Positions 10,346-23,136 of a stretch of DNA of 46,277 nucleotides are shown here, one piece after another. The stretch lies in assembly GCA_014361055.1 (NCBI GenBank), contig JACIWI010000016.1:1-46277 (forward strand), given 5' to 3'. The first letter of the stretch is position 1. Each line of letters begins with the position of its first letter. Origin of the DNA: Candidatus Bipolaricaulota bacterium (GTDB lineage Bacteria > Bipolaricaulota > Bipolaricaulia > Bipolaricaulales > Bipolaricaulaceae). Made by a program: the position numbers and the translations under genes. The notes below the pieces were generated by a model, which saw only the letters and a program-made list of their open reading frames with translations, did not search any database and was not told where the DNA came from.

Positions 10346-11578
10346 ATGAAGGCAATTCTGATCATCGCAGACGGGCTGGGCGGCCGGCCTACCGACTGCG
10401 GGGGGGCGACGTGCCTGGAGCGCGCGGCCACTCCAAATCTGGACGAGCTGGCCGCCCGTGGGGCACTGGGGCTCATGGATCCCATCGCCCCCGGGGTGCG
10501 GCCAGGCTCGGATACGGCCCACCTTTCCATCTTCGGATATGACCCGCATCAGGCCTATACCGGCCGCGGGGCGTTCGAGGCCCTGGGGATCGGGATGGAC
10601 GTCCGGCCAGGGGACGTGTGCTTCCGCGCCAACTTCGCCACCGTGGAGGAGACGAAGGACGGCCTGATCGTGCGAGACCGGCGGGCCGGGCGGCTCTCCG
10701 AGGGGGCGGAGCTGGCGAAGGCCTTAAGCTCCGTCCGCCTCGACGACCTCGGGGTAGACGCGTTTTTCCAGGCGTCCACCGAACACCGGGGGGCGCTGGT
10801 CCTGCGCGGGAATGGCCTTTCGGCCGCGGTCTCGGACACCGACCCCCACGCGGTGGGAGCCCCGGTGGCCGAGGCCCACGCCCTAACCGACGACCCGGCC
10901 GCCCGCCGGACAGCGGAGGCCCTGAACGCGTTCAGCCACCGCGCCCATGCCGTGCTCCGGGACCACCCGGTGAACCGGCGCCGCCTGAGCCAAGGCCAGC
11001 CCCCGGCCAACGCCCTCCTCCTGCGGGGGGCGGCGGTGATGCCCCACCTTGTGCCGATCACCGAGGAATACGGGATCCGCGGGGTCTGCATCGCCGGGGG
11101 GGCCCTGTACAAGGGGGTGGCCCGGGCGGCTGGCCTGGAGGTGCTGAGCGTCCCCGGGGTGACCGGCGACCTCAGGACCGACCTCCGGGCCAAGGCCCGC
11201 GCCGCCGCCCAGGCCCAGGTCGAGTTCGTGTTCGTACACATCAAGGGCACCGACAACGCCGCCCACGACGGGGACGCCGAAACGAAGCGGGAATTCATCG
11301 AACGCATCGACCGCGAGTTCTTCGGGGAACTGCTGGACGGCGTTTCTCTTTCCGAGACGCATATCTGTTTCTCCGGGGACCACACCACCCCTCCGCAGGT
11401 TCGGGAGCACACCGCCGACCCGGTGCCCGTGCTGTTCGTAGGACCGGCGGTCCGCCCGGACCGGACCCGATCGTTCGGGGAGCGGGCGGCCGGGGAGGGG
11501 GGCCTGGGACGATTCTCCGGGCGGCTGGTGCCCCAGCTCCTTGGCTACTGCGATCTCGGCCCCAAGTTCGGGGCGTGA
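10346..11578 (+). CDS. apgM: Cofactor-independent phosphoglycerate mutase, archaeal type
   Basis: A 410-residue member of the alkaline phosphatase superfamily, ApgM branch: interconverts 3- and 2-phosphoglycerate in glycolysis/gluconeogenesis without 2,3-bisphosphoglycerate. Metal and catalytic motifs are ADGLGGRPT (Asp9), ATPNLDELA, PGSDTAHLSIFGYDP with the nucleophilic Ser54, YTGRGAFEALG, FVHIKGTDNAAHDGD and FSGDHTTP. This type is common in archaea and some thermophilic bacteria. First gene of the long operon; the next start lies 10 bases after its stop. A glycolytic enzyme heading a hydrogenase operon is unusual and may tie both to central carbon flux. Confidence 0.93.
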   Translation: MKAILIIADGLGGRPTDCGGATCLERAATPNLDELAARGALGLMDPIAPGVRPGSDTAHLSIFGYDPHQAYTGRGAFEALGIGMDVRPGDVCFRANFATVEETKDGLIVRDRRAGRLSEGAELAKALSSVRLDDLGVDAFFQASTEHRGALVLRGNGLSAAVSDTDPHAVGAPVAEAHALTDDPAARRTAEALNAFSHRAHAVLRDHPVNRRRLSQGQPPANALLLRGAAVMPHLVPITEEYGIRGVCIAGGALYKGVARAAGLEVLSVPGVTGDLRTDLRAKARAAAQAQVEFVFVHIKGTDNAAHDGDAETKREFIERIDREFFGELLDGVSLSETHICFSGDHTTPPQVREHTADPVPVLFVGPAVRPDRTRSFGERAAGEGGLGRFSGRLVPQLLGYCDLGPKFGA

Positions 11579-11588
11579 GGAGGAGCCC

Positions 11589-11984
11589 GTGAAGCTGCAA
11601 GCGTTGGCCGAACTCGTCGGGGCGCGGTTCCTGACCGGGGCCGACCAGGGGGAGCGCGAGGTCACCCGGGCGTTCGCCGCCGATCTCCTGTCGGACGTGT
11701 TGGCCATGGTCCGCGAGGAGGGGGTGCTCCTCATCACCGGCACGGTGACCCCGCAGGTGGTGCGGGTGGCGGAGGTGATGAACATGGGGGCGATCCTGTT
11801 CGTGCGGGGGAAGCTGCCCACTCCGGCCACGGTGGAGTACGCCGCCGGTGCCGGCGTCCCCCTCCTGGCCACGGGGAAGATCATGTACGAGACCTGCGGG
11901 ATCCTCTACCAGCATGGGGTCCTCCCGGCGAAGCGCAAGGGCCTGCCCATGGACCATGTCCCCCCCAATCCCGCCCATCCATAA
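11589..11984 (+). CDS. DRTGG domain protein 1
   Basis: A 131-residue single DRTGG domain (the domain found in HPr kinase-related and phosphotransacetylase-related proteins, thought to bind a small ligand). Landmarks are FAADLLSDVLAMV, LLITGTVTPQVVRVAEVMNMGAILFV and VPLLATGKIMYETCGIL. GTG 11589 follows GAGGAG. In many anaerobes two DRTGG proteins, an RsbW-like ATPase and a PHP protein precede electron-bifurcating [FeFe] hydrogenase genes; the same order occurs here before a [NiFe] enzyme. The ATPase gene begins inside its 3' end, 29 bases overlapping. Ligand unknown. Confidence 0.8.
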   Translation: MKLQALAELVGARFLTGADQGEREVTRAFAADLLSDVLAMVREEGVLLITGTVTPQVVRVAEVMNMGAILFVRGKLPTPATVEYAAGAGVPLLATGKIMYETCGILYQHGVLPAKRKGLPMDHVPPNPAHP

Positions 11985-12432
11985 GCGGATCTTCCTCGTG
12001 GCCGCGGGGGACCTGGAGGGGGCGGGGTCGGTGTCCACCGCAGTCCGCCGGACGCTCCGGGAGCTGGGGGTGGAGCCGGACGTGGTCAAGCGGGCTGGCA
12101 TCGTGTGCTTCGAGGGCGAGATGAACATGGTCCTGTTCTCCCAGGGGGGGCGAATCATCCTCATCGTGCGCGAGGATCGGGTGGAGCTCCTGTTCTCCGA
12201 CCGGGGCCCAGGGATCGCCAACATCGACCTCGCTCGGCAACCCGGGTACTCCACCGCCCCGGATTGGGCCCGCGAGCTGGGTTTTGGCTCCGGCCTGGGC
12301 ATCCCCAACATGGAGCAGAACTCCGACCGGTTCGAGATCCACTCCCGGGTCGGGGAGGGCACGGTCATCCGATCCACCATCCTAAGGGGGGTACATGACG
12401 ATACAGGCGATCGTGGAGGAGCTCGGGCTTGA
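11956..12432 (+). CDS. RsbW/anti-sigma-like GHKL ATPase
   Basis: A 158-residue HATPase_c protein. The N box is FEGEMNMVLF (near residue 45), G1 is SDRGPGI, and G2 is GFGSGLGIPNM, so the ATP site is intact. No dimerisation/His-phosphotransfer domain is present, as in anti-sigma factors and serine kinases of the SpoIIAB/RsbW type. The start ATG at 11956 lies inside the DRTGG1 gene and the stop lies inside DRTGG2 (38 bases), so three genes are tightly coupled. Partner and target unknown; context suggests control of the hydrogenase or redox sensing. Confidence 0.8.
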   Translation: MSPPIPPIHKRIFLVAAGDLEGAGSVSTAVRRTLRELGVEPDVVKRAGIVCFEGEMNMVLFSQGGRIILIVREDRVELLFSDRGPGIANIDLARQPGYSTAPDWARELGFGSGLGIPNMEQNSDRFEIHSRVGEGTVIRSTILRGVHDDTGDRGGARA

Positions 12433-12727
12433 GGCGTTAGTGGCTGCTGACCTCGCCCGGGAGGTGCGCGGTGGGTACTGTTCGGACCTCCTGTCCGACG
12501 TCCTCGCCCATGCCAAGGCCGGGGACTTGTGGATCACCCACCAGCGGCACCTGAACGTGGTGGCGGTGGCGAAGCTCCGGGAACTGAGCGGGGTCATCTG
12601 CGTACGCGGCCTTGCGCCGGGGCCGGACGTGATCTCCCGCGCGGCAGACGAGAAGATAAACCTGCTCTTGACCTCCGAGGACGCGTTCGAGGTCGCCGGG
12701 AGGCTCCATCGGCTCCTCCACCCATGA
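12395..12727 (+). CDS. DRTGG domain protein 2
   Basis: A 110-residue single DRTGG domain, closer to the family consensus than the first copy: YCSDLLSDVLAHAKAGDLWIT, HLNVVAVAKLRELSGVICVRG and INLLLTSEDAFEVAGRLHRLL. AAGGGGGT lies 2-9 bases before the ATG. The stop overlaps the PHP start (ATGA). Two unequal DRTGG proteins flanking an ATPase suggest a small ligand-sensing complex, but no member of this arrangement has a function I can state from evidence. Confidence 0.82.
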   Translation: MTIQAIVEELGLEALVAADLAREVRGGYCSDLLSDVLAHAKAGDLWITHQRHLNVVAVAKLRELSGVICVRGLAPGPDVISRAADEKINLLLTSEDAFEVAGRLHRLLHP

Positions 12728-13482
12728 GGTGGTTCCGGGCTGACCTCCACATCCATTCCGTCCTGTCCCCCTGCGCCTCCCTCGCGATGTCCCCGCGACG
12801 CATCGTGGCCGAGGCCCGCCGGGCCGGACTTGATCTCATCGCCGTCTGCGACCACAATGCCGGCGAGAACGGGCGGTACGTGCGGCGCCTCGCCGGTGGC
12901 ACTCCGGCTGTGCTGATGGGCATGGAGATCCAGACCGAGGAAGAGGTCGAGCTCCTGGCGTACTTCGCCGACGAGGAGAGCTGTATCCTCCTCCAGGAGG
13001 AATTGTACCAGTACCTTCCCGACATCCCTTGTCGGCCTGACCTCTTTGGAGACCAATTGGTGGTGAACGCGGAGGACGAGATCGTGCGTCAGGTCCCCCA
13101 CCTTCTCCTCGCCCCGGTGGCGTTGCCCCTCGCCGAGGTGGTGCGCCGGGTGGAGTTGGTGGGCGGCCTGGCCATCCCGGCGCATGTGGACCGCGTCCCC
13201 GGTGGCCTCCTCGCCGTGCTCGGCCTGTTCCCGGAGGGGGAGTGGCCGTGGGCGGTGGAGATCGCGCCCTGGACCTCCCTCGCCGCCGCGTGGGCCGCCT
13301 GGCCTGCCCTCCGCGGGCGCCCGATCTTTCGGGCGTCCGACGCCCACATCCCGGAGGAGATCGGCCGAGCCTGGACCGAGCTCCTCCTTGCCGAGCCCTC
13401 GCTGGCAGAACTGCGGGCCGCGGTGCGCGGGGAGGAGGGGCGGGCGGTCCGGCCCGGTCCGGAAGCGAAGGAGGACGGTTGA
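12724..13482 (+). CDS. PHP domain phosphoesterase
   Basis: A 252-residue polymerase/histidinol-phosphatase (PHP) domain protein. Metal-site motifs are DLHIHSVLSPCA (residues 7-18), IAVCDHNAGEN, LMGMEIQTEEEVELLAYF, AIPAHVDRV and FRASDAHIPEEIG. These place His and Asp residues for a trinuclear metal site that hydrolyses phosphoesters. Such a PHP gene is a standard member of the DRTGG/ATPase/hydrogenase neighbourhood in anaerobes; its substrate is not known. Its start overlaps the DRTGG2 stop, and hydC1 begins within or right after its stop codon. Confidence 0.87.
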   Translation: MRWFRADLHIHSVLSPCASLAMSPRRIVAEARRAGLDLIAVCDHNAGENGRYVRRLAGGTPAVLMGMEIQTEEEVELLAYFADEESCILLQEELYQYLPDIPCRPDLFGDQLVVNAEDEIVRQVPHLLLAPVALPLAEVVRRVELVGGLAIPAHVDRVPGGLLAVLGLFPEGEWPWAVEIAPWTSLAAAWAAWPALRGRPIFRASDAHIPEEIGRAWTELLLAEPSLAELRAAVRGEEGRAVRPGPEAKEDG

Positions 13483-13484
13483 CG

Positions 13485-13952
13485 GTGGAGATCGAAGCGC
13501 GGGTCGCTGAACTGGTGAAGCCGTACGCGGGAAAGCGTTCCGAGCTCATCCAGGCCCTGCACCGGGTGCAGAGCGAGCTCGGACACATCCCCAAGGCGGC
13601 GCAGGCCGTGGTGGCGGAGGCGTTGGGCGTTCCCCCCTCCCAGGTGACCGGGGTCGTCTCGTTCTACCACTTCTTCCGCACCGCCCCGGCCGGCCAGCAC
13701 ACGGTGCGCCTGTGTCTGGGGACGGCGTGCCACGTGCGGGGCGCGGAACGGGTGCTCAAGGCGATCCAGGAGGAGTTGGGGGTCGGCCTCGGCGCGACCT
13801 CGGCCGACGGCATGTTCACCGTCGAGGGCGTGCGGTGCCTCGGGGCGTGTGGCCTGGCCCCGGTGATGATGGTGGACGATGAGGTGTACGGGCGGCTCGA
13901 CCCGAAGCGGGTGAAGCGGATCCTCCGCGAGGTCGGAAAGGATGGGGGATGA
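13485..13952 (+). CDS. hydC: HydC/NuoE-type [2Fe-2S] hydrogenase subunit, copy 1
   Basis: A 155-residue NuoE-like protein: an N-terminal four-helix part (AELVKPYAGKRSELIQALHRVQSELG begins it) and a thioredoxin-like domain binding one [2Fe-2S] cluster through Cys77, Cys82, Cys118 and Cys122. In HydABC-type hydrogenases it sits beside HydB and passes electrons near the FMN. GTG 13485 is preferred (GAAGGAGG about 10 bases upstream); TTG 13479, which overlaps the PHP stop as TTGA, is an alternative. It lies apart from both hydB genes, next to the GHKL ATPase, as in [FeFe] loci. Confidence 0.88.
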   Translation: MEIEARVAELVKPYAGKRSELIQALHRVQSELGHIPKAAQAVVAEALGVPPSQVTGVVSFYHFFRTAPAGQHTVRLCLGTACHVRGAERVLKAIQEELGVGLGATSADGMFTVEGVRCLGACGLAPVMMVDDEVYGRLDPKRVKRILREVGKDGG

Positions 13953-14500
13953 TCGAGGACCTGGCGATGCACCTCGCTGATCTCCTCGCGAACTCGTTCC
14001 GGGCCGGGGCCCGGCGCATCGAGGTCGGGCTGCGCCGCCGCGGCGGCGACCTCGTCCTCGAGGTGGCCGACGACGGGGCCGGCATCCCCGAAGGCGAGCT
14101 GGGGAAGGTGTGCGACCCGTTTTACACCACCAAGCCCCGGGCCAAGATCGGCCTCGGCCTCCCTCTCCTCGTCCAGACGGCGGAGGAGGTGGGCGGGGAG
14201 TGCCGGGTGGAGTCCGGCCCAGGGCAGGGGACGCGGGTCGCGGCGCGCCTCCCCTGGGACCACCCTGACCGGCCGCCCCTGGGGGACCTCGTGGGAACCC
14301 TCGTGCCGCTGATCGCCGCCAGCCCAGGGGTTGAGTTCTGCGTCGAGCTCAGCGATGATCGGGAGACGTGGCGGCTGTCGACCCGCGAGGTCCGTGAGCG
14401 CATCGGGGACGTGCCCTTGACCCACCCCGACGTGCTTTTCTTTTTGGAGCGCTCTCTGCAGGAGGGCATGGACCGCGTGGGGCTGAAGGAGGAGCGATGA
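13949..14500 (+). CDS. GHKL ATPase (histidine kinase-like ATP-binding protein)
   Basis: A 183-residue protein whose first about 110 residues form a HATPase_c domain: N box LADLLANSFRAGA, G1 ADDGAGIPEGEL, F box DPFYTTK, G2 KIGLGLPLLV, and GPGQGTRV. There is no His-containing dimerisation domain. The C-terminal 70 residues (ending in an LERSLQEGMDRV helix) look specific to this group. It is the second ATPase of the operon and is placed between hydC1 and the ferredoxin-like gene, the same place as in [FeFe] hydrogenase loci. Start overlaps the hydC1 stop (ATGA). Confidence 0.8.
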   Translation: MIEDLAMHLADLLANSFRAGARRIEVGLRRRGGDLVLEVADDGAGIPEGELGKVCDPFYTTKPRAKIGLGLPLLVQTAEEVGGECRVESGPGQGTRVAARLPWDHPDRPPLGDLVGTLVPLIAASPGVEFCVELSDDRETWRLSTREVRERIGDVPLTHPDVLFFLERSLQEGMDRVGLKEER

Positions 14501-14865
14501 AGCTTGAGGACCTACGCAAGATCCGCGAGCGGGCGGAGGCGGAGCTGCGGCTCCGGGGTGGGGCGGCCCGGGTGAAGATCGTGGTCGGGATGGGCACCTC
14601 GGGCATCGCCGCCGGGGCCCGCCAGGTGCTGCGGGCGATCCTGGACGAGGTCTCCCGCCGCAACCTCCGGGACGTGGTGGTCACCCAGACCGGGGAGAAG
14701 GGGTTGAGCGCCCAGGAGCCGATCGTCGAGGTCCATGAGCCGGACAGGATCACGATCTACGGCGAGGTGGACGAGGCCACGGCGCGGCGGATCGTGGTCG
14801 AACACGCGGTCAACGGTCGCCCGCTCGCCGACCACGTGGTGGAGGTGCGGGAGGTGACGCGGTGA
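14497..14865 (+). CDS. Thioredoxin-fold ferredoxin homologue lacking all cysteines
   Basis: A 122-residue protein of the thioredoxin-like [2Fe-2S] ferredoxin family that lies between the GHKL ATPase and hydA in hydrogenase loci. The skeleton is intact: KIVVGMGTSGIAAGAR, VVVTQTG and EPIVEV. The positions that normally hold cluster cysteines (GTC-G and TGCIGMC in homologues as I remember them) read GTSG and TGEKGLSA, and the whole protein contains no Cys. It therefore cannot bind a [2Fe-2S] cluster in the usual way. It may serve as a structural or regulatory subunit. Start and stop both overlap neighbouring genes (ATGA, GTGA), so it is kept in the operon. Confidence 0.82.
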   Translation: MKLEDLRKIRERAEAELRLRGGAARVKIVVGMGTSGIAAGARQVLRAILDEVSRRNLRDVVVTQTGEKGLSAQEPIVEVHEPDRITIYGEVDEATARRIVVEHAVNGRPLADHVVEVREVTR

Positions 14866-15569
14866 TCACCCTGCGCATCGATGACATACCCGTACAGGCC
14901 GAACCCGACCAGACCATCCTCGACGCGGCCAAGGCCGCCGGGATCCGCATCCCCACCCTGTGCCACCTTCCGGGCCTCTCCCCGGTGGGGGCGTGCCGGC
15001 TGTGCCTGGTGGAGATCAGGAACTGGAACGGAAAGCTCGTCCCGGCCTGCGCGACCCCTGTCCAAGAGGGGTTGGACGTGGTGGCCAATTCCGACCGCCT
15101 GCGGGAGCTCAGGCGCACGATCCTCGAGCTCCTGTTCGCCGAGCGCAACCACATCTGCGCCTTCTGTGTCGCAAACGGGCACTGTGAGCTCCAGGATCTC
15201 GCCGCGGAGCTCGGGATGGACCACGTGCGCTTCCCGTACCGGTTCCCGCCCCTGCCCCTCGACGCGAGCCACCCGAAATTTGGCATCGACCACAACCGGT
15301 GCATCCTGTGCGGCCGTTGCGTGCGGGCCTGCTCCGAGGTGGAAGGGGCGATGACGTGGGGGTTCGCCGGGAGGGGGATCTTCACCCTGATCGAGGCCGA
15401 CCTCGGCGACCCGTGGGGGGACGCCAAGACATGCACCGGCTGCGGGAAATGCGTCCAGGCTTGCCCTACCGGGGCGCTGTTCGAGAAGGGGCGGGCCACG
15501 GGCGAGCAGGAGAAGCGCCCGGCGATCGTGGCCGCCCTGACGGAAAGGAGGCCGCGTGCCCAAGGTTAG
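14862..15569 (+). CDS. hydA: HydA-type iron-sulfur subunit (NuoG N-terminus/HoxU-like)
   Basis: A 235-residue electron-relay subunit with four predicted clusters. A [2Fe-2S] domain uses Cys34, Cys45, Cys48 and Cys63; a His-ligated [4Fe-4S] uses His97, Cys99, Cys102 and Cys108; and two ferredoxin-type [4Fe-4S] sites use Cys147/150/153 with Cys201 and Cys191/194/197 with Cys157. It lacks the H-cluster domain of [FeFe] HydA, so catalysis must come from HydSL encoded next. This is the arrangement of HydABCSL and of HoxU. Starts at GTG overlapping the previous stop. Confidence 0.92.
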
Positions 15570-16083
15570 GGTGGCCACGGCGTGGTTCTCCGGTTGTTCC
15601 GGGTGCCACATGTCGTTTTTGGACCTGGACGAGCGGCTGTTGGAATTCGCGGGCAAGGCGGAACTCGTCTATTCGCCGATCGTGGACATAAAGGAGTTCC
15701 CCGACGACGTCGACGTGACCCTGATCGAAGGGGCGGTGGGCACGAGCGAACACCTCCATCTCCTTGCGGAGATCAGGAGGAAATCAAGGCTCCTCGTGGC
15801 GTTCGGGGACTGCGCGGTCACCGGGAACGTCCCGTCCCTGCGCAACCCGATCCCGCGGGAGGAGGTGCTGCATGCGGTGTACGGGGACGGCAGCGTCCCT
15901 GGCCTGGAGGGGGGCGAGGTCCCCAAGCTCCTTCCCCAGGCCCTGCCGCTGCATGCGGTGGTCCGGGTGGATCATTTCCTCCCCGGCTGTCCCCCGCCCC
16001 CGGACCGGATTTGGAAGTTCCTGCGCCAGCTCCTCGCCGGGAAAGAACCCGAGCTCGCCCGGGAGGACCTCCGTTTCGGGTGA
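15556..16083 (+). CDS. hydS: [NiFe] hydrogenase small subunit
   Basis: A 175-residue small subunit of the short cytoplasmic type (HoxY-like, no Tat signal). Cys14 and Cys17 in [13 protein letters not shown], Cys86 in FGDCAVTGN and Cys145 in PGCPPPP are placed for the single proximal [4Fe-4S] cluster that accepts electrons from the NiFe site. No Cys for medial or distal clusters is present, so electrons must leave through HydA. GTG 15556 is preceded by GAAAGGAGG and lies 14 bases inside the 3' end of hydA. Confidence 0.93.
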
Positions 16084-16094
16084 AGGGGGTGACG

Positions 16095-17519
16095 GTGAAG
16101 GAAATCAAGGTACCGGTAACCAGGATCGAGGGCCACGGGCTGATCACCCTCCGCCTCGACCGGGGCGGGAAGGTGGCCGCGGCCAAGTTCCACGTCACCG
16201 AGGCCCGCGGGTTCGAACGGTTCTGCCAGGGCCGCACGGTATGGGAGATGCCGGGGATCACCGCCCGCATCTGCGGGATCTGCCCGGTGTCCCATCTGTT
16301 GTGCTCGGCCAAGGCCGGGGACGCCATCCTCGCCGTGCGCCCGCCGCGCCCGGCGGAGGTGCTCCGGCGCCTGATGAACCTGGGCCAGTTCATCCAATCC
16401 CACGCCCTGTCGTTCTTCCACCTTTCCTCCCCAGACCTCCTCTTGGGGTGGGACGCCGATCCCAAGGGCCGCAACGTGTTTGGCCTGGCCCAGGCCCATC
16501 CTCAGCTTGCGCTGGACGGGATCCGCCTGCGCGCGTTCGGGCAGGAGATCATCGCCGCATTGGGGGAGAAGCGCGTCCATCCGGCATGGGCGGTGCCCGG
16601 TGGGGTGCGCCAGCCCCTGTCCCCCGAGGCCCGCGACCGGCTGGCGGCCAAGGTTCCCGAGGCCCGGCGCATCGCCCAGGACGCCCTCGCCCTGTACGAG
16701 GCGCGCCTCCCCGAGTGGGGCGAAGAGATCGAGACGTTCGGGAACTTTCCCAGCCTCTTCATGGCCCTGGTGGCCTCCGATGGGACATGGGAGCACCATG
16801 CGGGGCGGATCCGGTTCGTGGATGCGGACCGCCGAGTCGTCGCCGACGGCCTCGATCCGGCGCGCTACCCCGAGTACATCGGGGAGGCGGTGGAGGGCTG
16901 GTCCTACCTCAAGTTCCCGTACTTCCAAGATGCCGGGTATCCGGAAGGGCTGTACCGCGTGGGGCCCTTGAGCCGGCTCAACTGCTGCGATCGCATGGGG
17001 ACGCCCCTCGCCGATGAGGCCCTCGCCAGATTTCGCGCCCAGGCCGACGGGAAGGCGGTGACCTCGTCGTTCCATTACCACTACGCCCGTTTGATCGAAA
17101 CCCTCGCCGCGGTGGAACAGGTGGCGAGGCTCCTTGAGGATCCGGAGGTTCTCTCGCCCCGGGTGCGGGCCGAAGCGGGGATCAACGAGCTCGAGGGGGT
17201 GGGCGTGCACGAGGCCCCGCGGGGGACCCTGTTCCACCACTATTGGGTGGACGAGCACGGGGTCATCCAGCGGGTCAACCTGATCGTGTCCACCGGGCAC
17301 AACAACCTGGCCATGAACCGGACGGTGGCCCAGATCGCCGCGCGGTACCTGACCGGACGCAAGGTGAGCGACGGGCTCCTCAACCGCCTGGAGGGGGGGA
17401 TCCGCGCCTACGACCCGTGTCTGTCCTGCTCGGTACACGCCGTGGGGCGGATGCCGCTCCGGGTGGTCCTCGTGGGGCCGACCGGCGAGGTGTTGGACGA
17501 AAGGACGCGGGACGCATGA
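16095..17519 (+). CDS. hydL: [NiFe] hydrogenase large (catalytic) subunit
   Basis: A 474-residue catalytic subunit. The L1 motif RICGIC gives Cys60 and Cys63, and the L2 motif DPCLSCSVH gives Cys442 and Cys445; these four bind the NiFe(CN)2CO centre. After His448 come 26 residues (from AVGRMPL), a HoxH-like C-terminal extension expected to be removed by a maturation protease, encoded next. N-terminal VTRIEGHG is typical. Sequence around L2 resembles group 3 (bidirectional, NAD(P)-linked) enzymes. GTG 16095 was chosen from the AAGGGGG site (16083-16089); GTG 16080 and 16089 are alternatives. Confidence 0.94.
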
Positions 17520-17944
17520 TCCTCGTGATCGGGCTCGGCCATCCCCTCCGTCGGGATGACGGGGTCGGGCTGTGGGTGGCCAGCCGCCTCCAGGGGGTCG
17601 AGGGGCTGAAGGTGCTGGGGACGCAGGAGCTCGTGCCGGAGCTCATCCCCCAGGTGGCGGTGGCAGACCTCGTGATCTTCGTGGACGCCCGGATCGGGTC
17701 CGGCCCGGTGCGCTGGGAACCCGTCCACCCCGGGCACCGGCCCGCGCTCACCCACACCTTCACCCCACCGGGCCTCCTCGCTTGGGCGGAGCACCTGTTC
17801 GGCCGGGCTCCGGAGGCGTGGCTGGTTACCGTCCCCGCCCGCGACCTCGCCTTCGGCGAGGGGCTGTCCCCGCGCACGCGCCGGGCGGCGGAGGCGCTTC
17901 TGGGGCGGCTGCGGGCCTACCTCGGCCGAGAGGAGGGGGCGTGA
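17516..17944 (+). CDS. Hydrogenase maturation protease (HycI/HoxW family)
   Basis: A 142-residue nickel-dependent endopeptidase that trims the C-terminus of the large subunit once nickel is inserted. The N-terminal [15 protein letters not shown] matches the family GxGNxLxxDDGxG motif with Asn replaced by His; [12 protein letters not shown] and VIFVDARI supply the acidic metal-binding residues (Glu and Asp). A His in [13 protein letters not shown] fits the third ligand. Starts on an ATGA overlap with hydL, so enzyme and substrate are co-translated. The HydL extension after DPCLSCSVH is its predicted target. Confidence 0.9.
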
Positions 17945-19731
17945 GGCGCCTTGAAGTCCTGATTTGCTCGGGAACCGCTTGTCAATCCTCGGGAGGCCTC
18001 CACGTGAAGCGGGCCCTGCTCCAGGCCCTGGCCGATCACGGCCTGGCAAGCGAGGTCCAGCTGGTGGAGACAGGATGCATGGGGCCGTGCGAGCTGGGGC
18101 CGGTGCTCCTCGTGTACCCGGAGGGCACCTTCTACGTCCGGGTCCGCCCCGAGGACGCCGCGGAGATCGTGGTCGAGCACTTCCTGAAAGGGCGGCCGGT
18201 ACGGCGGCTCCTGTGGACGGAAGGGGCGCCTCCCCCCCGGGAGATCCCGTTCTTCGCCCGCCAGAAGAAGCTGGTGCTCGCCAACTCCGGGGTCATCGAC
18301 CCGGAGAGGATCGAGGAGTACATCGCCGTCGGGGGCTACGAGGCCCTCGGCCGGGCCCTGACCCAGATGACGCCGGAGCAGGTCATCGCCGAGGTCCGGC
18401 GGTCCGGCCTCCGGGGCCGGGGCGGGGCCGGGTTCCCCACCGGGGCCAAATGGGAGGCGGTGCGGGCCGCCCCGGGGACCCCGAAGTACGTGATCTGCAA
18501 CGCCGACGAGGGCGATCCGGGAGCGTTCATGGACCGGGCCGTGCTCGAAGGGGATCCCCACAGCGTGCTTGAAGGGATGGCCATCGCCGCCTACGCGGTG
18601 GGGGCCAACCACGGTTACATCTACGTGCGCGCCGAGTACCCGCTGGCCGTGAGGCGCCTCGAGGTGGCGATCGCCCAGGCCCGGAAGCTGGGCGTCCTCG
18701 GGGAGCGCATTTTCGACGCCGACTTCTCGTTCGACATCGAGCTCCGGATGGGGGCGGGCGCGTTCGTGTGCGGCGAGGAGACGGCGCTCATCGCGTCCAT
18801 CGAGGGCCGTCGCGGTGAGCCACGGCCGCGCCCGCCGTACCCGGCCACGTCCGGGCTGTGGGGCAAACCCACGTTGATCAACAACGTCGAGACCTACGCG
18901 AGCGTCCGCCACATCATCCTGAACGGGGCGGACTGGTTTGCCCAGATCGGCACCGCCGGGAGCAAGGGGACCAAGGTGTTCGCCCTCGCCGGCAAGGTCC
19001 GGAACACCGGCCTCGTCGAGGTGCCGATGGGGATCACCCTCCGGGAGCTGATCTTCGACATCGGCGGCGGGGTCCCTGCGGGACGAGCGTTCAAGGCGGT
19101 CCAGATCGGGGGGCCGTCCGGGGGGTGCCTTCCGGCATCCCTCCTCGACGTGCCGGTGGACTACGACTCGCTCCGGGAACACGGGGCGATCATGGGCTCC
19201 GGGGGCCTGATCGTCCTCGACGATTCGGCGTGCATGGTGAACGTGGCCAAGTTCTTCCTGGAGTTCACCGCCGATGAGTCCTGCGGGAAATGCATCCCAT
19301 GCCGGGTGGGGACGCGGATGATGCTCGGGATCCTCGACCGGATCACCCGGGGCGAGGGAGACGAGGAGGACCTCCGACGGCTTGTGGAGATCGGGGAGAT
19401 GGTGCGGGCTGCCTCCCTGTGTGGCCTCGGGCAGACCGCACCCAACCCGGTCCTCTCCACCCTCCGCTACTTCGAGGACGAGTACCGGGCCCACATCCAC
19501 GAGCGGGCCTGCCCGGCGGGCGTGTGCCCAGACCTCGTCCACTACGCGATCCTGGCCGAGCGGTGCCGGGCTTGCGACGCCTGCCGGCGGGCCTGTCCCA
19601 CCGGGGCTGCCCAGGGGACCCCCGGGCAGCCGCCGTACCGGATCGTGGATTCCCTGTGCATCCGGTGCGGGGCGTGTTTGGAGGCCTGCCCGTTCGGGGC
19701 GGTGGAGAAGCGGCCCGGTCAAAGGGGGTGA
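17941..19731 (+). CDS. hydB: HydB/NuoF-type flavin subunit with ferredoxin domains, copy 1
   Basis: A 596-residue protein. Residues 1-85: thioredoxin-like [2Fe-2S] domain with Cys9, Cys14, Cys46 and Cys50. Residues about 115-470: FMN/NAD(H)-binding NuoF core with [23 protein letters not shown] and [12 protein letters not shown], then SLBB and the [4Fe-4S] motif [13 protein letters not shown] with the later CGLGQ cysteine. The last about 60 residues carry two ferredoxin motifs ([12 protein letters not shown] and [12 protein letters not shown]). This is the complete bifurcating-type HydB architecture. GTG start overlaps the protease stop. Confidence 0.93.
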
Positions 19732-19733
19732 CG

Positions 19734-20192
19734 GTGGACAAGGAAACGATCATCGGCCAGTATCCGCGGTCTCCGGATTGCCTCCTTTCCATCCTCCACG
19801 ACCTCCAGGAGGCGAACCCGGAGAACTACCTGACCGAGGACGACCTGGCGCTCGTCGCAGCCCACGTAGGGCTTCCGCTCTCGGCGGTTCACGACGCGGT
19901 GACGTTCTACTCCATGTTCAGTCTCCGTCCCCGTGGCCGCCACATCATCCGCCTGTGCGCGTCCCCGAACTGCCATCTCGCCGGGGCGTGGTCGGCCCTC
20001 GCGGAGCTGCGGACGCTCCTCGGGGTGGACGTGGGCGGGACCACGCCCGACGGCCTATTCACCCTCGAGCTCACGAGCTGCCTCGGGGTCTGTGGGGTGG
20101 CTCCGGTGATGATGGTGGACGATGAGGTGGTGGGGAACCTCACCCCGGACAAGGTTCGTCAGACGATCGCGCGGTATCGGGAGGCGGGATGA
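19734..20192 (+). CDS. hydC: HydC/NuoE-type [2Fe-2S] subunit, copy 2
   Basis: A 152-residue NuoE homologue with Cys75, Cys80, Cys116 and Cys120 for one [2Fe-2S] cluster. It differs from copy 1 through most of its length but keeps VAPVMMVDDEV near the end, where copy 1 has LAPVMMVDDEV. Start GTG 19734 follows AAAGGGGG by 5 bases; another GTG at 19728 overlaps the hydB1 stop. It is sandwiched between the two hydB genes and may serve either one. Confidence 0.9.
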   Translation: MDKETIIGQYPRSPDCLLSILHDLQEANPENYLTEDDLALVAAHVGLPLSAVHDAVTFYSMFSLRPRGRHIIRLCASPNCHLAGAWSALAELRTLLGVDVGGTTPDGLFTLELTSCLGVCGVAPVMMVDDEVVGNLTPDKVRQTIARYREAG

Positions 20193-21811
20193 AGATCGCC
20201 AGGGCCCACGTGCTCGTTGGTGTGGACGACGAGGCGCGCCTCGCCGGTGTGGACGAGGTGCTGGCCGTCCTGCGGGGGGCGATCGCCGAGCTCGGCCTGG
20301 AGGGCGAGGTCCGGGTGGTGGAGACCGGAACCCTCGGCATTTCCGGTCGCGGGGTGGCGATCGCCGTGTACCCGGATGGGGTGTACTACGCCGGGGTGAC
20401 CCCGGCCGACGCCCGGACCATCGCCGAGGAGCACCTTTGGAAAGGGCGGCCGGTCGAGCGGCTGCGCCTGCCCACCGCGGCCCCGGTGGCCCGGCCCGGG
20501 GAGATCCTCGGCCGCCAGACCCGGGTGGTGCTCGCCAACTGTGGGGTCATCGATCCGGAGGAGATCGACGAGTACATCGCCGTCGGCGGCTACGAGGCCC
20601 TGGCCCGGGCGGTGACGGAGATGACCCCGGAGGCGGTCATCGACGAGGTCAAGCGGTCCGGCCTCCGCGGCCGGGGCGGGGCCGGGTTCCCCACCGGGGT
20701 CAAATGGTCGGCGGTGCGCCTGGCCTCGGGCCCGGAGAAGTACGTGATCTGCAACGCCGACGAGGGCGAGCCAGGCACGTTCAAGGACCGGCTGATCCTG
20801 GAGGGCGATCCGCATAAGCTCATCGAGGCGATGGCCATCGCCGCGTACGCGGTGGGCGCCCGGACGGGCATCGTCTATGTGCGCGGGGAGTACAAGCTCT
20901 CCATCGCCCGGATCAGCCGGGCCATCGCCCAGGCCCGGGAGTACGGGCTCCTCGGCCCGCGGATCCTCGACACCGCCTTCTCGTTCGACATCGAGGTCCG
21001 GCCGGGGGCCGGGGCGTACGTGTGCGGGGAGGAGACGGCCCTCATCGAGTCTCTGGAGGGCAAGCGCGGCTGGCCCCGGATCCGCCCGCCCTACCCGGTG
21101 ACCCACGGCTTGTGGGGAAAGCCGACGGTGGTGAACAACGTGGAGACGCTCGCCAACGTCCCCGAGATCCTCCGGCGGGGGGCGGCGTGGTACCGGACGC
21201 TCGGCACCCCCACCTGCCCGGGGACGAAGGTGTACACGATCCTCGGACACGTGCGGTTCCCCGGCCTCGTGGAGGTCCCGATGGGGACCCCGCTGCGGAC
21301 GCTCGTCTACGAGCTCGGCGGTGGGCTCCCCGAGGGGCGGGCGCTCAAGGGGTTGCTCATCGGCGGGGCGGCGGGAGCGTTTCTCCCCCCGGCAGCCCTG
21401 GATGTGCGCATGGATTTCGACTCGCTTGCGGAGCGGGCGGCGGTCCTGGGATCGGGGGCGATCCTGGTCATGGACGAGACGACGTGCATCGTGGACATGC
21501 TCGGGAGCGTCCTCCGGTTCTTCCGCCACGAATCGTGCGGCCAGTGCGTCCCCTGCCGGGCAGGGACGGACGCGCTGGTGCGGCTGATGGCGGCCCTCCA
21601 AGCCGGGGAGGGGGGCGAGCGGATCCTGTCGCAGATGGTGGAGATCGTGGACGCGATGCGGCTCGCTTCCCTATGCCCCCTGGGCCAGTCGGTGGCCCTT
21701 CCCGTGTGCACCGCAGTGGATGGATTCCGGGACGAGTTCCTCGCCCATGCCCGGGGAAACCCATGCCCGCGGTGCTGGGCCAACGCCCATCCCCGTGAGG
21801 GGGCACCATGA
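20189..21811 (+). CDS. hydB: HydB/NuoF-type flavin subunit, copy 2, cluster-depleted
   Basis: A 540-residue NuoF homologue. The FMN/NAD core is intact ([40 protein letters not shown]) and so is the [4Fe-4S] site (ESCGQCVPCRAGT plus Cys in LCPLGQS). The N-terminal thioredoxin-like domain is present, but ETGTLGIS replaces ETGCMGPC of copy 1 and there is no Cys in the first 100 residues. The C-terminal two-cluster ferredoxin domain is missing; only a CPRC remnant remains near the end. The NADEGEPGTFKDR loop resembles NuoF/HoxF rather than HydB1 (GDPGAFMDR), so it may use a different nucleotide or role. ATGA overlaps join it to hydC2 and to the next gene. Confidence 0.9.
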   Translation: MKIARAHVLVGVDDEARLAGVDEVLAVLRGAIAELGLEGEVRVVETGTLGISGRGVAIAVYPDGVYYAGVTPADARTIAEEHLWKGRPVERLRLPTAAPVARPGEILGRQTRVVLANCGVIDPEEIDEYIAVGGYEALARAVTEMTPEAVIDEVKRSGLRGRGGAGFPTGVKWSAVRLASGPEKYVICNADEGEPGTFKDRLILEGDPHKLIEAMAIAAYAVGARTGIVYVRGEYKLSIARISRAIAQAREYGLLGPRILDTAFSFDIEVRPGAGAYVCGEETALIESLEGKRGWPRIRPPYPVTHGLWGKPTVVNNVETLANVPEILRRGAAWYRTLGTPTCPGTKVYTILGHVRFPGLVEVPMGTPLRTLVYELGGGLPEGRALKGLLIGGAAGAFLPPAALDVRMDFDSLAERAAVLGSGAILVMDETTCIVDMLGSVLRFFRHESCGQCVPCRAGTDALVRLMAALQAGEGGERILSQMVEIVDAMRLASLCPLGQSVALPVCTAVDGFRDEFLAHARGNPCPRCWANAHPREGAP

Positions 21812-23136
21812 AGCTCACCTTTGCCGGGGCAGCGGGCACGGTCACGGGGTCCTGCTTCCATCTTGAGGCGGGCGGGACCCGGCTTTTGGTGGACTGCGGG
21901 ATGTTCCAGGGGCTGCCGGAGCTTGAGGCCCGGAACCTCGCGCCGTTCCCGTTCGATCCGGCCAAGGTGGACTGGCTCTTCCTCACCCACGGCCACCTCG
22001 ACCACCTGGGGCTGATCCCCCGTCTTGTCCGGGAGGGGTTCCGCGGCCGCGGCGTGTGCACCGTGCCGACCCGGGACATCGCCCACGTCATGCTCATGGA
22101 CGCCGCGAGGATCCAGGAGGAGGAAGGGGAGGCCGCCCTGTACACGGCCGCCGACGCCCTGGCTGCCCTGGATCGGTTCGTGGTCCAGATAGAGTACGGG
22201 GAGGAACTGGAGCTTGGGGCGGGGATCACGGTTCGGTTCCACGACGCCGGCCACATCCTGGGAGCGGCGTCCGTGGAGGTCCGGGCCGAGGGTAAGACGG
22301 TCGTGTTTTCCGGCGACCTCGGCAACCGGGGCAAGCCCCTGGTCACCGACCCCGCCTATCCGCCCAAAGCCGACGTGTTGGTGCTCGAGTCCACCTACGG
22401 CGATCGCCACCACCCGCCCTTTGAGGAGTCGGTGGAGGAGCTCCGGCGGGCGATCGTGGACACCCTGGCCGCCGGGGGCAACGTGGTCATCCCCTCGTTC
22501 GCCCTGGAGCGGACCCAGGAGGTGCTGTACATCCTGTTCCATCTGTGGCGGGAGCGGAAGATCCCGGAGTGCCGCATCTACCTGGACTCCCCCCTCGCCA
22601 CCCATGCCACCCGCATCTTCGAGCGGTACACGGAGCGCTTCCCCAGCCCGGCGCGGAAGCTGTTCCGCAAAAAGCGCGACCCGTTCGACTTCGAGCTCCT
22701 CGAGTACACGCTCACCAAGAAAGATTCGAAGCGCATCTCCGAGGAGCGAGGGGTGATCATCATCGCCGGCTCGGGGATGTGCACCGGCGGGCGGGTCCTC
22801 TACCACCTGCGGGACAACCTCCCCCGGCCGGAGTCGGCAATCGTGTTCGTCGGGTTCCAAGCGATGGGGACGCTGGGGAGGGAGATCGTGGACGGGGCGT
22901 CGAGGGTGGAGGTGTTGGGGTCGGTGGTGCCGGTGCGGGCGTCCATCTGGCGGATCGAGGGCCTGTCTGCCCACGCGGATCAGCCGATCCTGGTGGACTG
23001 GGCGCTGCACGCCGATCCGGGGCAGGTGTTCCTGGTGCACGGGGAGGAGCCGGCGCTGGCGGCGTTGGCGGAGCGCCTGTCCGCCCACGGCTACGCGGCC
23101 CGCATCCCGGCGTGGCATGAGGCGGTCGTCCTATGA
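21808..23136 (+). CDS. Metallo-beta-lactamase/beta-CASP RNase (CPSF73-like)
   Basis: A 442-residue cytosolic nuclease-type protein. The zinc motif is LTHGHLDHLG (near residues 68-77); further metal ligands are HDAGHILGA and SGDLG. The beta-CASP insert follows, and the family motifs GSGMCTGGR and LSAHADQ close the active site. Relatives process or degrade RNA. Encoded with overlapping ATGA junctions on both sides at the end of the hydrogenase operon; a link to hydrogenase function is not evident, and it may simply be co-transcribed. Confidence 0.88.
   Translation: MKLTFAGAAGTVTGSCFHLEAGGTRLLVDCGMFQGLPELEARNLAPFPFDPAKVDWLFLTHGHLDHLGLIPRLVREGFRGRGVCTVPTRDIAHVMLMDAARIQEEEGEAALYTAADALAALDRFVVQIEYGEELELGAGITVRFHDAGHILGAASVEVRAEGKTVVFSGDLGNRGKPLVTDPAYPPKADVLVLESTYGDRHHPPFEESVEELRRAIVDTLAAGGNVVIPSFALERTQEVLYILFHLWRERKIPECRIYLDSPLATHATRIFERYTERFPSPARKLFRKKRDPFDFELLEYTLTKKDSKRISEERGVIIIAGSGMCTGGRVLYHLRDNLPRPESAIVFVGFQAMGTLGREIVDGASRVEVLGSVVPVRASIWRIEGLSAHADQPILVDWALHADPGQVFLVHGEEPALAALAERLSAHGYAARIPAWHEAVVL

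Follow-up and report, generated by a model that had tools for sequence, protein, structure and literature searches.

A DRTGG, GHKL ATPase and PHP gene module associated with bifurcating NAD(H)/ferredoxin enzymes

A module of five genes, encoding two DRTGG-domain proteins, two GHKL ATPases and a PHP phosphoesterase, is associated with bifurcating enzymes in distantly related bacteria. Judging from the gene neighbourhoods, its partner is the NAD(H)/ferredoxin node and not hydrogenase as such. We propose, at roughly even odds, that the five genes constitute one accessory signal-transduction unit of NAD(H)/ferredoxin enzymes, namely BfuABC/HydABC and, in some Clostridia, Rnf. The module was studied in a 46,277-nucleotide stretch of DNA from a Candidatus Bipolaricaulota bacterium, referred to below as the window.

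Results

All genes of the locus are located on the forward strand. The first gene, DRTGG1 (11589..11984), has a GTG start and encodes a 131-aa protein (PF07085, 25.1 bits; cut-off 25.2). This gene is followed by the gene for a 158-aa SpoIIAB/RsbW/RsbT-like GHKL ATPase, a probable Ser/Thr kinase (11956..12432; TIGR01925 spIIAB, 3.4e-12), by DRTGG2, which encodes a 110-aa stand-alone DRTGG-domain protein (12395..12727; PF07085, 6.5e-7), and by the gene for a 252-aa putative PHP metal-dependent phosphoesterase (12724..13482; PF13263, 1.8e-8; PF02811, 3.9e-4). The fifth member encodes a 183-aa GHKL ATPase, the "HisK" of HydABCSL operons (13949..14500; PF02518, 1.2e-17). The profile matches bear out the first-pass annotation, which had recognised five genes with DRTGG, PHP and two kinds of ATPase domains. 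The nested overlaps of up to 38 bases that it reported are likewise present: 29 nt between DRTGG1 and the first ATPase gene, 38 nt between the latter and DRTGG2, and 4 nt between DRTGG2 and the PHP gene (ATGA, with the PHP ATG over the DRTGG2 stop). The gene order was also read correctly, but the genes are not contiguous: the gene for the [2Fe-2S] thioredoxin-like hydrogenase subunit NuoE/HydC (BfuC; 13479..13952; PF01257, 1.4e-52), which lies between the PHP and GHKL genes, had been missed. In most other lineages the PHP and GHKL genes are adjacent, matching the order implied by that annotation.

The module genes and those of a HydABCSL-type [NiFe] hydrogenase are tightly packed into a single operon, which continues unbroken to approximately position 21811. 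The GHKL gene is followed by the genes for HydD, a small ferredoxin-like accessory protein (14497..14865; weak match to NF041612, 2.6e-5), HydA (BfuA), a short NuoG-type Fe-S subunit without an H-cluster domain (14862..15569; PF13510, PF10588, Fer4), the [NiFe] hydrogenase small subunit HydS (15556..16083; PF01058, 7.1e-28) and the large subunit HydL (16089..17519; PF00374, 2.4e-32). Further downstream are HydP (17516..17944), which gave no match in the Pfam search and is predicted to be a hydrogenase maturation endopeptidase from its position and reading frame, the FMN/NAD(H) subunit HydB (BfuB) with a C-terminal ferredoxin domain (17941..19731; PF01512, 1.4e-48; PF10589, 1.9e-33; Fer4), NuoE2 and NuoF2. 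By its gene content the hydrogenase is assigned to the HydABCSL type and is predicted to be bifurcating on that ground. The HydABCSL operon of Acetomicrobium mobile (PMC8880783, PMC9304861) shares with the window the genes for HydA, B, C, S and L as well as HydD, HydP and HisK, all of which lie in one operon here; its hisK corresponds to the GHKL gene and its hydD to the gene at 14497..14865. The published list of the A. mobile operon does not contain the DRTGG, RsbT-like and PHP genes, whereas the window has these four upstream of HydC and, in addition, a second NuoE/NuoF pair.

The same gene order is found in about 27 related genomes at approximately 53–98% identity. Outside these relatives, 63 PHP matches were obtained from more than 12 bacterial phyla, and 53 of the 63 are accompanied by the complete set of DRTGG, RsbT/W-like ATPase, DRTGG, PHP and GHKL genes. 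The preserved order in the relatives, together with the recurrence of most of the set in other phyla, shows that the arrangement is not due to chance.

The first-pass annotation had claimed that the set recurs beside hydrogenases and had suggested a survey of genome co-occurrence. The module proved to occur mostly together with bifurcating enzymes: BfuB (HydB) is encoded on the same stretch in 50 of the 53 complete distant copies. In one phylum sample BfuB is present in 77/77 module genomes compared with 88/123 module-less genomes, and in Bipolaricaulota in 45/45 compared with 32/55. At least 53 of 78 module copies in the phylum sample, and at least 33 of 46 in Bipolaricaulota, lie within 15 kb of BfuB. 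The reverse does not hold, as many genomes with BfuB are module-less (88/165 and 32/77, respectively). The recurrence is therefore upheld, while specificity for hydrogenase is not. The Bfu partners of the module include FeFe, NiFe, molybdopterin formate-dehydrogenase (Fdh) and Nfn-fusion types, and in some Clostridia the module is found near rnfCDGEAB or rex. HydD, encoded in 68 loci, is a neighbour common to module and Bfu operons. Some copies are isolated or lie beside other genes (L186), and one adjoins a Prismane/Hcp gene (L187). Since enzyme partners and neighbours vary, NAD(H)/ferredoxin is the constant factor among them.

Profile and structure comparisons assign the DRTGG fold to both DRTGG proteins of the window. 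The DRTGG1 profile matches the DRTGG structures 2ioj and 3l2b, which are also the closest structures to the AF2 model of DRTGG2 (pLDDT 98). The residues D32-L33-x-S35 of DRTGG1 are invariant in 30/30 orthologues, and D31, L32, L33, S34, V36, W46, T48, H52 and N54 of DRTGG2 in 31/31. The canonical TGGDR-type motif was not found in either window protein, where TGTVTPQ and THQRHLN stand instead. A P-loop-DRTGG protein encoded in the same genome retains TGGDRTD. The module proteins resemble in fold the DRTGG domains of AF1212, CBS-pyrophosphatase and the HPr kinase N-terminus (TMq 0.82 to 2ioj; 0.73 to 3l2b and 1ko7), but they are stand-alone and paired, their TGGDR motif is replaced, and they carry a module-specific invariant DLxS. 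A STAS-like kinase substrate by fold was considered and rejected: Foldseek returned DRTGG, HPrK and ligase domains, with no STAS domain among the 50 matches listed.

The product of the gene at 11956..12432 is probably a SpoIIAB-like Ser/Thr kinase, as its profile matches SpoIIAB structures, the nearest solved relatives, at 3e-13, and the catalytic residues Glu53 and Asn57 are invariant in 32/32 sequences. The conserved Glu/Asn N-box is shared with the partner-switching proteins SpoIIAB, RsbW and RsbT. In contrast to those systems, the module has DRTGG and PHP proteins in the places of the STAS antagonist, PP2C phosphatase and sigma factor; no STAS, PP2C, sigma-factor or DNA-binding gene was found in the window module or in the conserved set of the distant loci. 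In the second ATPase (13949..14500) the residues H8, D11, N15, D41 and G43 are conserved. Pfam matched only HATPase_c families and no HisKA/DHp domain in this protein, and no cognate response regulator is encoded between positions 10346 and 21811; by sequence it would not qualify as a two-component histidine kinase. An anti-phage function was discarded, PADLOC giving no meaningful match (MzaB, 4e-4, GHKL alone).

The PHP protein is predicted to be a phosphoesterase with the PHP fold and the full set of metal ligands, H8, H10, D42, H43, E67, H153, D205 and H207, all of which are invariant. The structures nearest to its AF2 model (pLDDT 95) are EndoQ, TM0559 and RNase AM. With these and with nucleoside bisphosphate phosphatase it has the fold and all metal ligands in common, but identity is only 16–18%, and the module PHP is fused to GHKL in three genomes (L169, L170, L175). 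It lies nearer to nucleic-acid and nucleotide enzymes than to the CpsB/YwqE phosphatases, and a CpsB/YwqE-type protein-Tyr phosphatase was rejected on the weak match (E 0.088). The partial distance correlation is highest for the PHP–HisK pair (0.44) and is 0.03 for HisK–HydB. The fusions and this correlation disfavour the GHKL protein being a hydrogenase accessory unrelated to the other four. HisK is nevertheless also part of an operon for which none of the other four genes is described (PMC8880783). In L100/L103 the PHP gene is preceded by a 643-aa gene that was considered as a further fusion, but its product reads as an unrelated membrane protein.

An extra module gene, present in 32 of the 63 distant loci, encodes a degenerate FeFe-hydrogenase-like Fe-S protein of about 450 aa, in which the Cys residues of positions L1, L2 and L3 are retained. 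Such Cys positions are likewise kept by Nar1-type Fe-S carriers. In L064 the Fe-S domain forms a fusion with HisKA-HATPase, and in L152 with an MCP domain. This protein is a likely input protein in many lineages. The gene is absent from the window operon, and no PF02906 match was found in the 92%-complete genome; the first-pass annotation could not have noticed it, because the window's lineage lacks it. An excerpt of PMC3561251, citing Calusinska et al., describes putative sensory [FeFe] hydrogenases (M2e and M2f) that, together with kinases, are encoded upstream of trimeric bifurcating hydrogenases, and links such sensory hydrogenases and kinases to them by inferred regulation. The Fe-S gene and kinases of the module fit this neighbourhood, e.g. 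Cthe_0335 and Athe_1292. The cluster description in that excerpt does not include the DRTGG pair or PHP, and the window has no sensory hydrogenase; relative to the excerpt, the present analysis adds the linkage to NiFe, Fdh, Nfn, Rnf and Rex.

Discussion

The comparisons establish the association itself: a conserved gene set with intact active-site residues, its linkage to the redox enzymes, the PHP–GHKL fusions, and the DRTGG and PHP folds. The chemistry outlined next is inferred from these. In the signal-transduction unit that we propose, the SpoIIAB/RsbT-like ATPase would act as a protein kinase on both DRTGG proteins or be gated by them. The DRTGG proteins may be phosphorylated near the invariant DLxS, or may have a small molecule, most likely a nucleotide, as ligand, or both. 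The PHP protein and the second GHKL ATPase would then remove the phosphate or destroy the nucleotide and thereby reset the system. The output may be an adjustment of the neighbouring redox enzyme, more likely post-translational than transcriptional, because genes for DNA-binding, sigma or STAS proteins are absent from the module. In the window's lineage, which lacks the FeFe-like protein, the signal would have to enter through the DRTGG proteins, the GHKL proteins or the enzyme itself. Several observations count against the proposal: the DRTGG fold differs from STAS, which leaves SpoIIAB-type kinases without their classical substrate; the position of PHP near nucleic-acid and nucleotide enzymes weakens a role as phosphoprotein phosphatase; and some module copies are isolated or have other neighbours (L186, L187). 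The redox switch on hydrogenase suggested by the first-pass annotation survives in part: the components suit a phospho- or nucleotide-based switch, but control would not be hydrogenase-specific, since loci with Fdh- and Nfn-type Bfu, rnf and rex carry the module too.

An unlikely alternative is that the GHKL proteins, HydD, PHP and the FeFe-like protein build or repair Bfu-type Fe-S clusters as chaperones and not as sensors. For HisK and HydD, Feng et al. consider a role in maturation possible besides one in regulation (PMC8880783), the partners (Bfu, Rnf, Hcp-like) are rich in Fe-S, and the FeFe-like protein has the Cys residues described above. However, its fusions to a kinase and an MCP domain are typical of sensors, the SpoIIAB-like member has intact kinase residues, and BfuB occurs in many module-less genomes. 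Moreover, the active A. mobile enzyme has only HisK, HydD and HydP as listed extra operon genes (PMC8880783).

We give a still smaller chance to a nucleotide second messenger, in which DRTGG would bind an adenine (di)nucleotide, PHP would hydrolyse it, and the GHKL proteins would be ATP-gated transducers and not kinases. DRTGG lies within the adenine-nucleotide-regulated part of CBS-pyrophosphatases (3l2b), and among the structures closest to PHP are RNase AM, an AMP-bound amidohydrolase-class enzyme (2yb1) and BAD_1165. In CBS-pyrophosphatases, however, the nucleotide is bound by CBS and not by DRTGG; the module has no synthase gene, and both DRTGG proteins have lost the canonical motif. It is improbable that the SpoIIAB-like kinase controls an unlinked sigma/anti-sigma pair, so that the module would act on transcription, jointly with Rex in loci where rex is adjacent. 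The SpoIIAB-family match, the proximity of rex to the module in L154, L155 and L157 and the binding of Rex upstream of the five-gene Hyd operon of A. bescii (PMC6391272) and of its orthologue in C. thermocellum (PMC8457756) fit this reading, but the conserved set has no STAS, PP2C, sigma-factor or DNA-binding gene, and the known transcriptional control is already explained by Rex.

Searches of the open-access literature on DRTGG proteins in connection with hydrogenases, on PHP proteins in connection with bifurcation, and on the T. maritima and C. thermocellum loci gave no description of the full module. The module looks like an undescribed control unit of anaerobic energy metabolism. More tentatively than the signal-transduction unit itself, we suggest a widespread system in which DRTGG receptors replace the STAS partners of a SpoIIAB/RsbT-like kinase and PHP–GHKL resets it; such a system would set Bfu/Rnf activity and thereby control the NADH/ferredoxin balance of anaerobes directly.

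The energy that fermenters, acetogens and syntrophs have to spend depends on bifurcating enzymes and Rnf, yet apart from Rex little is known about how the activity of these enzymes is controlled. A. bescii and C. thermocellum, anaerobes for which genetics is established, offer a way to test the role of the module, which also bears on H2 and ethanol yields. If the proposal is correct, this five- or six-gene unit, which lies next to Bfu enzymes of differing third substrates and next to Rnf, would regulate the NADH/ferredoxin node in a general way.

Operon organization in the window

The draft genome holding the window (1.56 Mb, 92% complete) has Bipolaricaulota/Acetothermia MAGs as its nearest named relatives. 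From 10346 to approximately 21811 on the + strand, the genes abut or overlap in a single run without breaks, in the order ApgM, DRTGG1, SpoIIAB-like ATPase, DRTGG2, PHP, NuoE/HydC, GHKL, HydD, HydA, HydS, HydL, HydP, HydB, NuoE2 and NuoF2. Consensus scans revealed no promoter-like site inside this run, and terminator-like sites occur there at the chance rate. The five proteins named in the first-pass annotation, two DRTGG proteins, an RsbW-like ATPase, a PHP phosphoesterase and a GHKL ATPase, are all encoded here, and the nested overlaps of up to 38 bases which it reported correspond to 29, 38 and 4 nt at the first three junctions of the module. What had been overlooked is that PHP and GHKL are separated by the NuoE/HydC gene.

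The ApgM gene, which encodes an archaeal-type phosphoglycerate mutase (10346-11578, + strand), ends 10 bp upstream of DRTGG1, and it is found upstream of DRTGG1 in nearly all close relatives whose contig reaches far enough. Given this spacing and the kept position, the glycolytic gene may share the operon. The second NuoE/NuoF pair, NuoE2/NuoF2 (19719-21811, + strand), lacks the C-terminal ferredoxin domain; it directly follows HydB, a position kept in most close relatives. Its end is overlapped by a beta-CASP metallo-beta-lactamase gene (21808-23136; PF10996, PF07521). A protein that looks similar to the latter is also encoded near the module copy in locus L187.

By gene content, the hydrogenase of the window belongs with the bifurcating [NiFe] enzymes of HydABCSL type known from A. 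mobile. The A. mobile operon includes HydD, HydP and HisK, for which its authors assume maturation and/or regulatory roles, and its HisK is described without the other four module genes (PMC8880783). Judged by position and family, the GHKL gene of the window is taken to be the A. mobile-type HisK, and it thus links the hydrogenase unit to the module.

Conservation and cohesion of the gene set

A search with the PHP protein within the same phylum gave matches, mostly strong, in 48 of 100 genomes, and the fetched loci display the fixed order DRTGG1-ATPase-DRTGG2-PHP-NuoE-GHKL-HydD-HydA. When the PHP alignment was made into a profile and run more widely against GTDB genomes, it yielded 80 loci from Bipolaricaulota, Aminicenantes, WOR-3, KSB1, Hydrothermota, Bacteroidota, Deltaproteobacteria, Firmicutes, Spirochaetes, Cloacimonadota, Ignavibacteria, Armatimonadetes, Dehalococcoidia and others. 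Once the close relatives of the window were left out, 63 distant loci remained. The ATPase is present in 55 of these, two DRTGG genes in 54 and GHKL in 61; the full set beside PHP occurs in 53/63, BfuB, the HydB-type core gene, likewise in 53/63, and the full set together with BfuB in 50/63, several of the loci falling short of this running out at a contig edge.

PHP and GHKL are naturally fused into a single polypeptide in three genomes (L169:11972-13276, L170:11869-13167 and L175:4090-5367). In an exploratory distance-matrix comparison of 42 loci, uncorrected for shared history, the highest partial correlation was that of PHP and GHKL (0.44), and that of GHKL and BfuB was 0.03.

As a further member of the set, 32 of the 63 distant loci include a gene for an Fe-S protein of about 450 aa, which in most cases stands between the ATPase gene and DRTGG2. 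The protein combines a pair of [4Fe-4S] ferredoxin motifs with a degenerate FeFe-hydrogenase domain (PF02906, 9e-22), and its C-terminal part carries an FeS motif (PF04060). In L064 this set of domains occurs fused to HisKA-HATPase, and in L152 to an MCP (chemotaxis) signalling domain. According to PMC3561251, putative sensory hydrogenases usually lie upstream of trimeric bifurcating hydrogenases, often with a histidine/serine kinase between, and by neighbourhood the Fe-S gene fits this description. None of 17 close relatives of the window has such a gene inside the module, and the genome of the window, at 92% completeness, gave no PF02906 match. Variant clusters in L152, L156 and L162 combine a SpoIIAB-like ATPase with one or more FeFe-hydrogenase-like proteins, with DRTGG and PHP undetected; in L152 an OmpR-type response regulator stands beside a histidine kinase.

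Active sites and folds

The catalytic residues of the module enzymes are intact. In the SpoIIAB-like ATPase, Glu53, Asn57 and the G-boxes are kept in 32/32 sequences, and its profile matches the structures of SpoIIAB (3e-13) and RsbW (2.5e-4); its GYSTA motif is reminiscent of RsbT. All metal-ligand residues of PHP are kept. The PHP model (pLDDT 95) is nearest to EndoQ, TM0559, RNase AM and a nucleoside-bisphosphate-phosphatase-type enzyme, at 15-18% identity throughout. The DRTGG2 model (pLDDT 98) has the DRTGG fold (2ioj, TMq 0.82), with no STAS fold among the matches listed. Both DRTGG1 and DRTGG2 have lost the TGGDR motif; a separate P-loop-DRTGG protein of the same genome (L001:213-1322) retains the canonical TGGDRTD motif. 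In both proteins an invariant DLxS opens a helix that comes after a strand, and a conserved Thr closes the adjacent strand, where DRTGG2 also has conserved His and Asn. From the alignments and the DRTGG2 model, these residues would form part of the lining of the pocket in which folds of this kind usually bind ligands. AF1212 carries Gln at the Ser position of DLxS in the profile alignment.

Partner enzymes of the module

The best partner of the module is the BfuABC core and not hydrogenase. By motif, HydA with a canonical H-cluster was found in 24 distant loci having BfuB. At other module loci HydA is accompanied by HydS/HydL, in L097, L113 and L102 it is a molybdopterin (formate-dehydrogenase-type) protein, and in L053 BfuB is fused to an Nfn-type Pyr_redox unit. 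Among 200 genomes evenly drawn from one phylum and centred on a Peptococcaceae genome, the module ATPase occurs in 77, called across a clean gap (at least 168 bits versus about 45-58 bits for other matches). BfuB is present in 77/77 module genomes versus 88/123 without the module (Fisher p ~9e-9, uncorrected for relatedness), and at least 53 of 78 module copies lie within 15 kb of it. The regions around the remaining 25 copies were classed by reading gene content: seven more copies belong to a Bfu operon, rnf genes are close to six and rex is close to three, one breaks off at HydD where the contig stops, and the other eight are truncated, variant or ambiguous. The identities of rnfC, rnfD and rex were verified on representative loci. 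In Bipolaricaulota, BfuB is present in 45/45 module genomes versus 32/55 without the module, with at least 33 of 46 copies within 15 kb. The module is rare in the Bacteroidota sample (5/248), and all five fetched stretches contain a BfuB-type gene. One copy lies among housekeeping genes (L186) and another adjoins a Prismane (hybrid-cluster-type) gene (L187). The co-occurrence survey therefore found the module in the company of bifurcating enzymes rather than mostly without them or hydrogenase. The proposed recurrence beside hydrogenases holds as a conserved, BfuB-linked set, the partners being NAD(H)/ferredoxin enzymes and not hydrogenase as such.

The gene rex, for the NADH/NAD+-sensing repressor, is found near the GHKL end of the module in L154, L155 and L157.

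Proposed role of the module

Earlier papers have already pointed out kinases and sensory hydrogenases in the vicinity of bifurcating hydrogenases, as well as HisK/HydD in HydABCSL. In the open-access papers searched we found no description of the DRTGG-ATPase-DRTGG-PHP-GHKL module, nor an account of its spread beyond hydrogenases and its link to Rnf and Rex. Because the search was confined to open-access papers, the module is regarded as undescribed provisionally.

We propose that the SpoIIAB-like kinase would act on the DRTGG proteins or be gated by them, that PHP-GHKL may serve as a reset unit and that the output would be directed at the adjacent enzyme. The main rival explanation, a role in Fe-S maturation, is made less probable by the sensor-type fusions of the FeFe-hydrogenase-like protein and by the many genomes with BfuB but without the module. 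The conserved set contains no DNA-binding, sigma or STAS gene, and Rex control of the Hyd operon has been published for A. bescii (PMC6391272) and C. thermocellum (PMC8457756); a post-translational role of the module is therefore more economical than another transcriptional one, and we prefer it. In L149, L163 and L167 the module directly precedes rnf genes, as do partial sets in L148 and L168. This position before rnf suggests shared control of the Rnf and Bfu enzymes.
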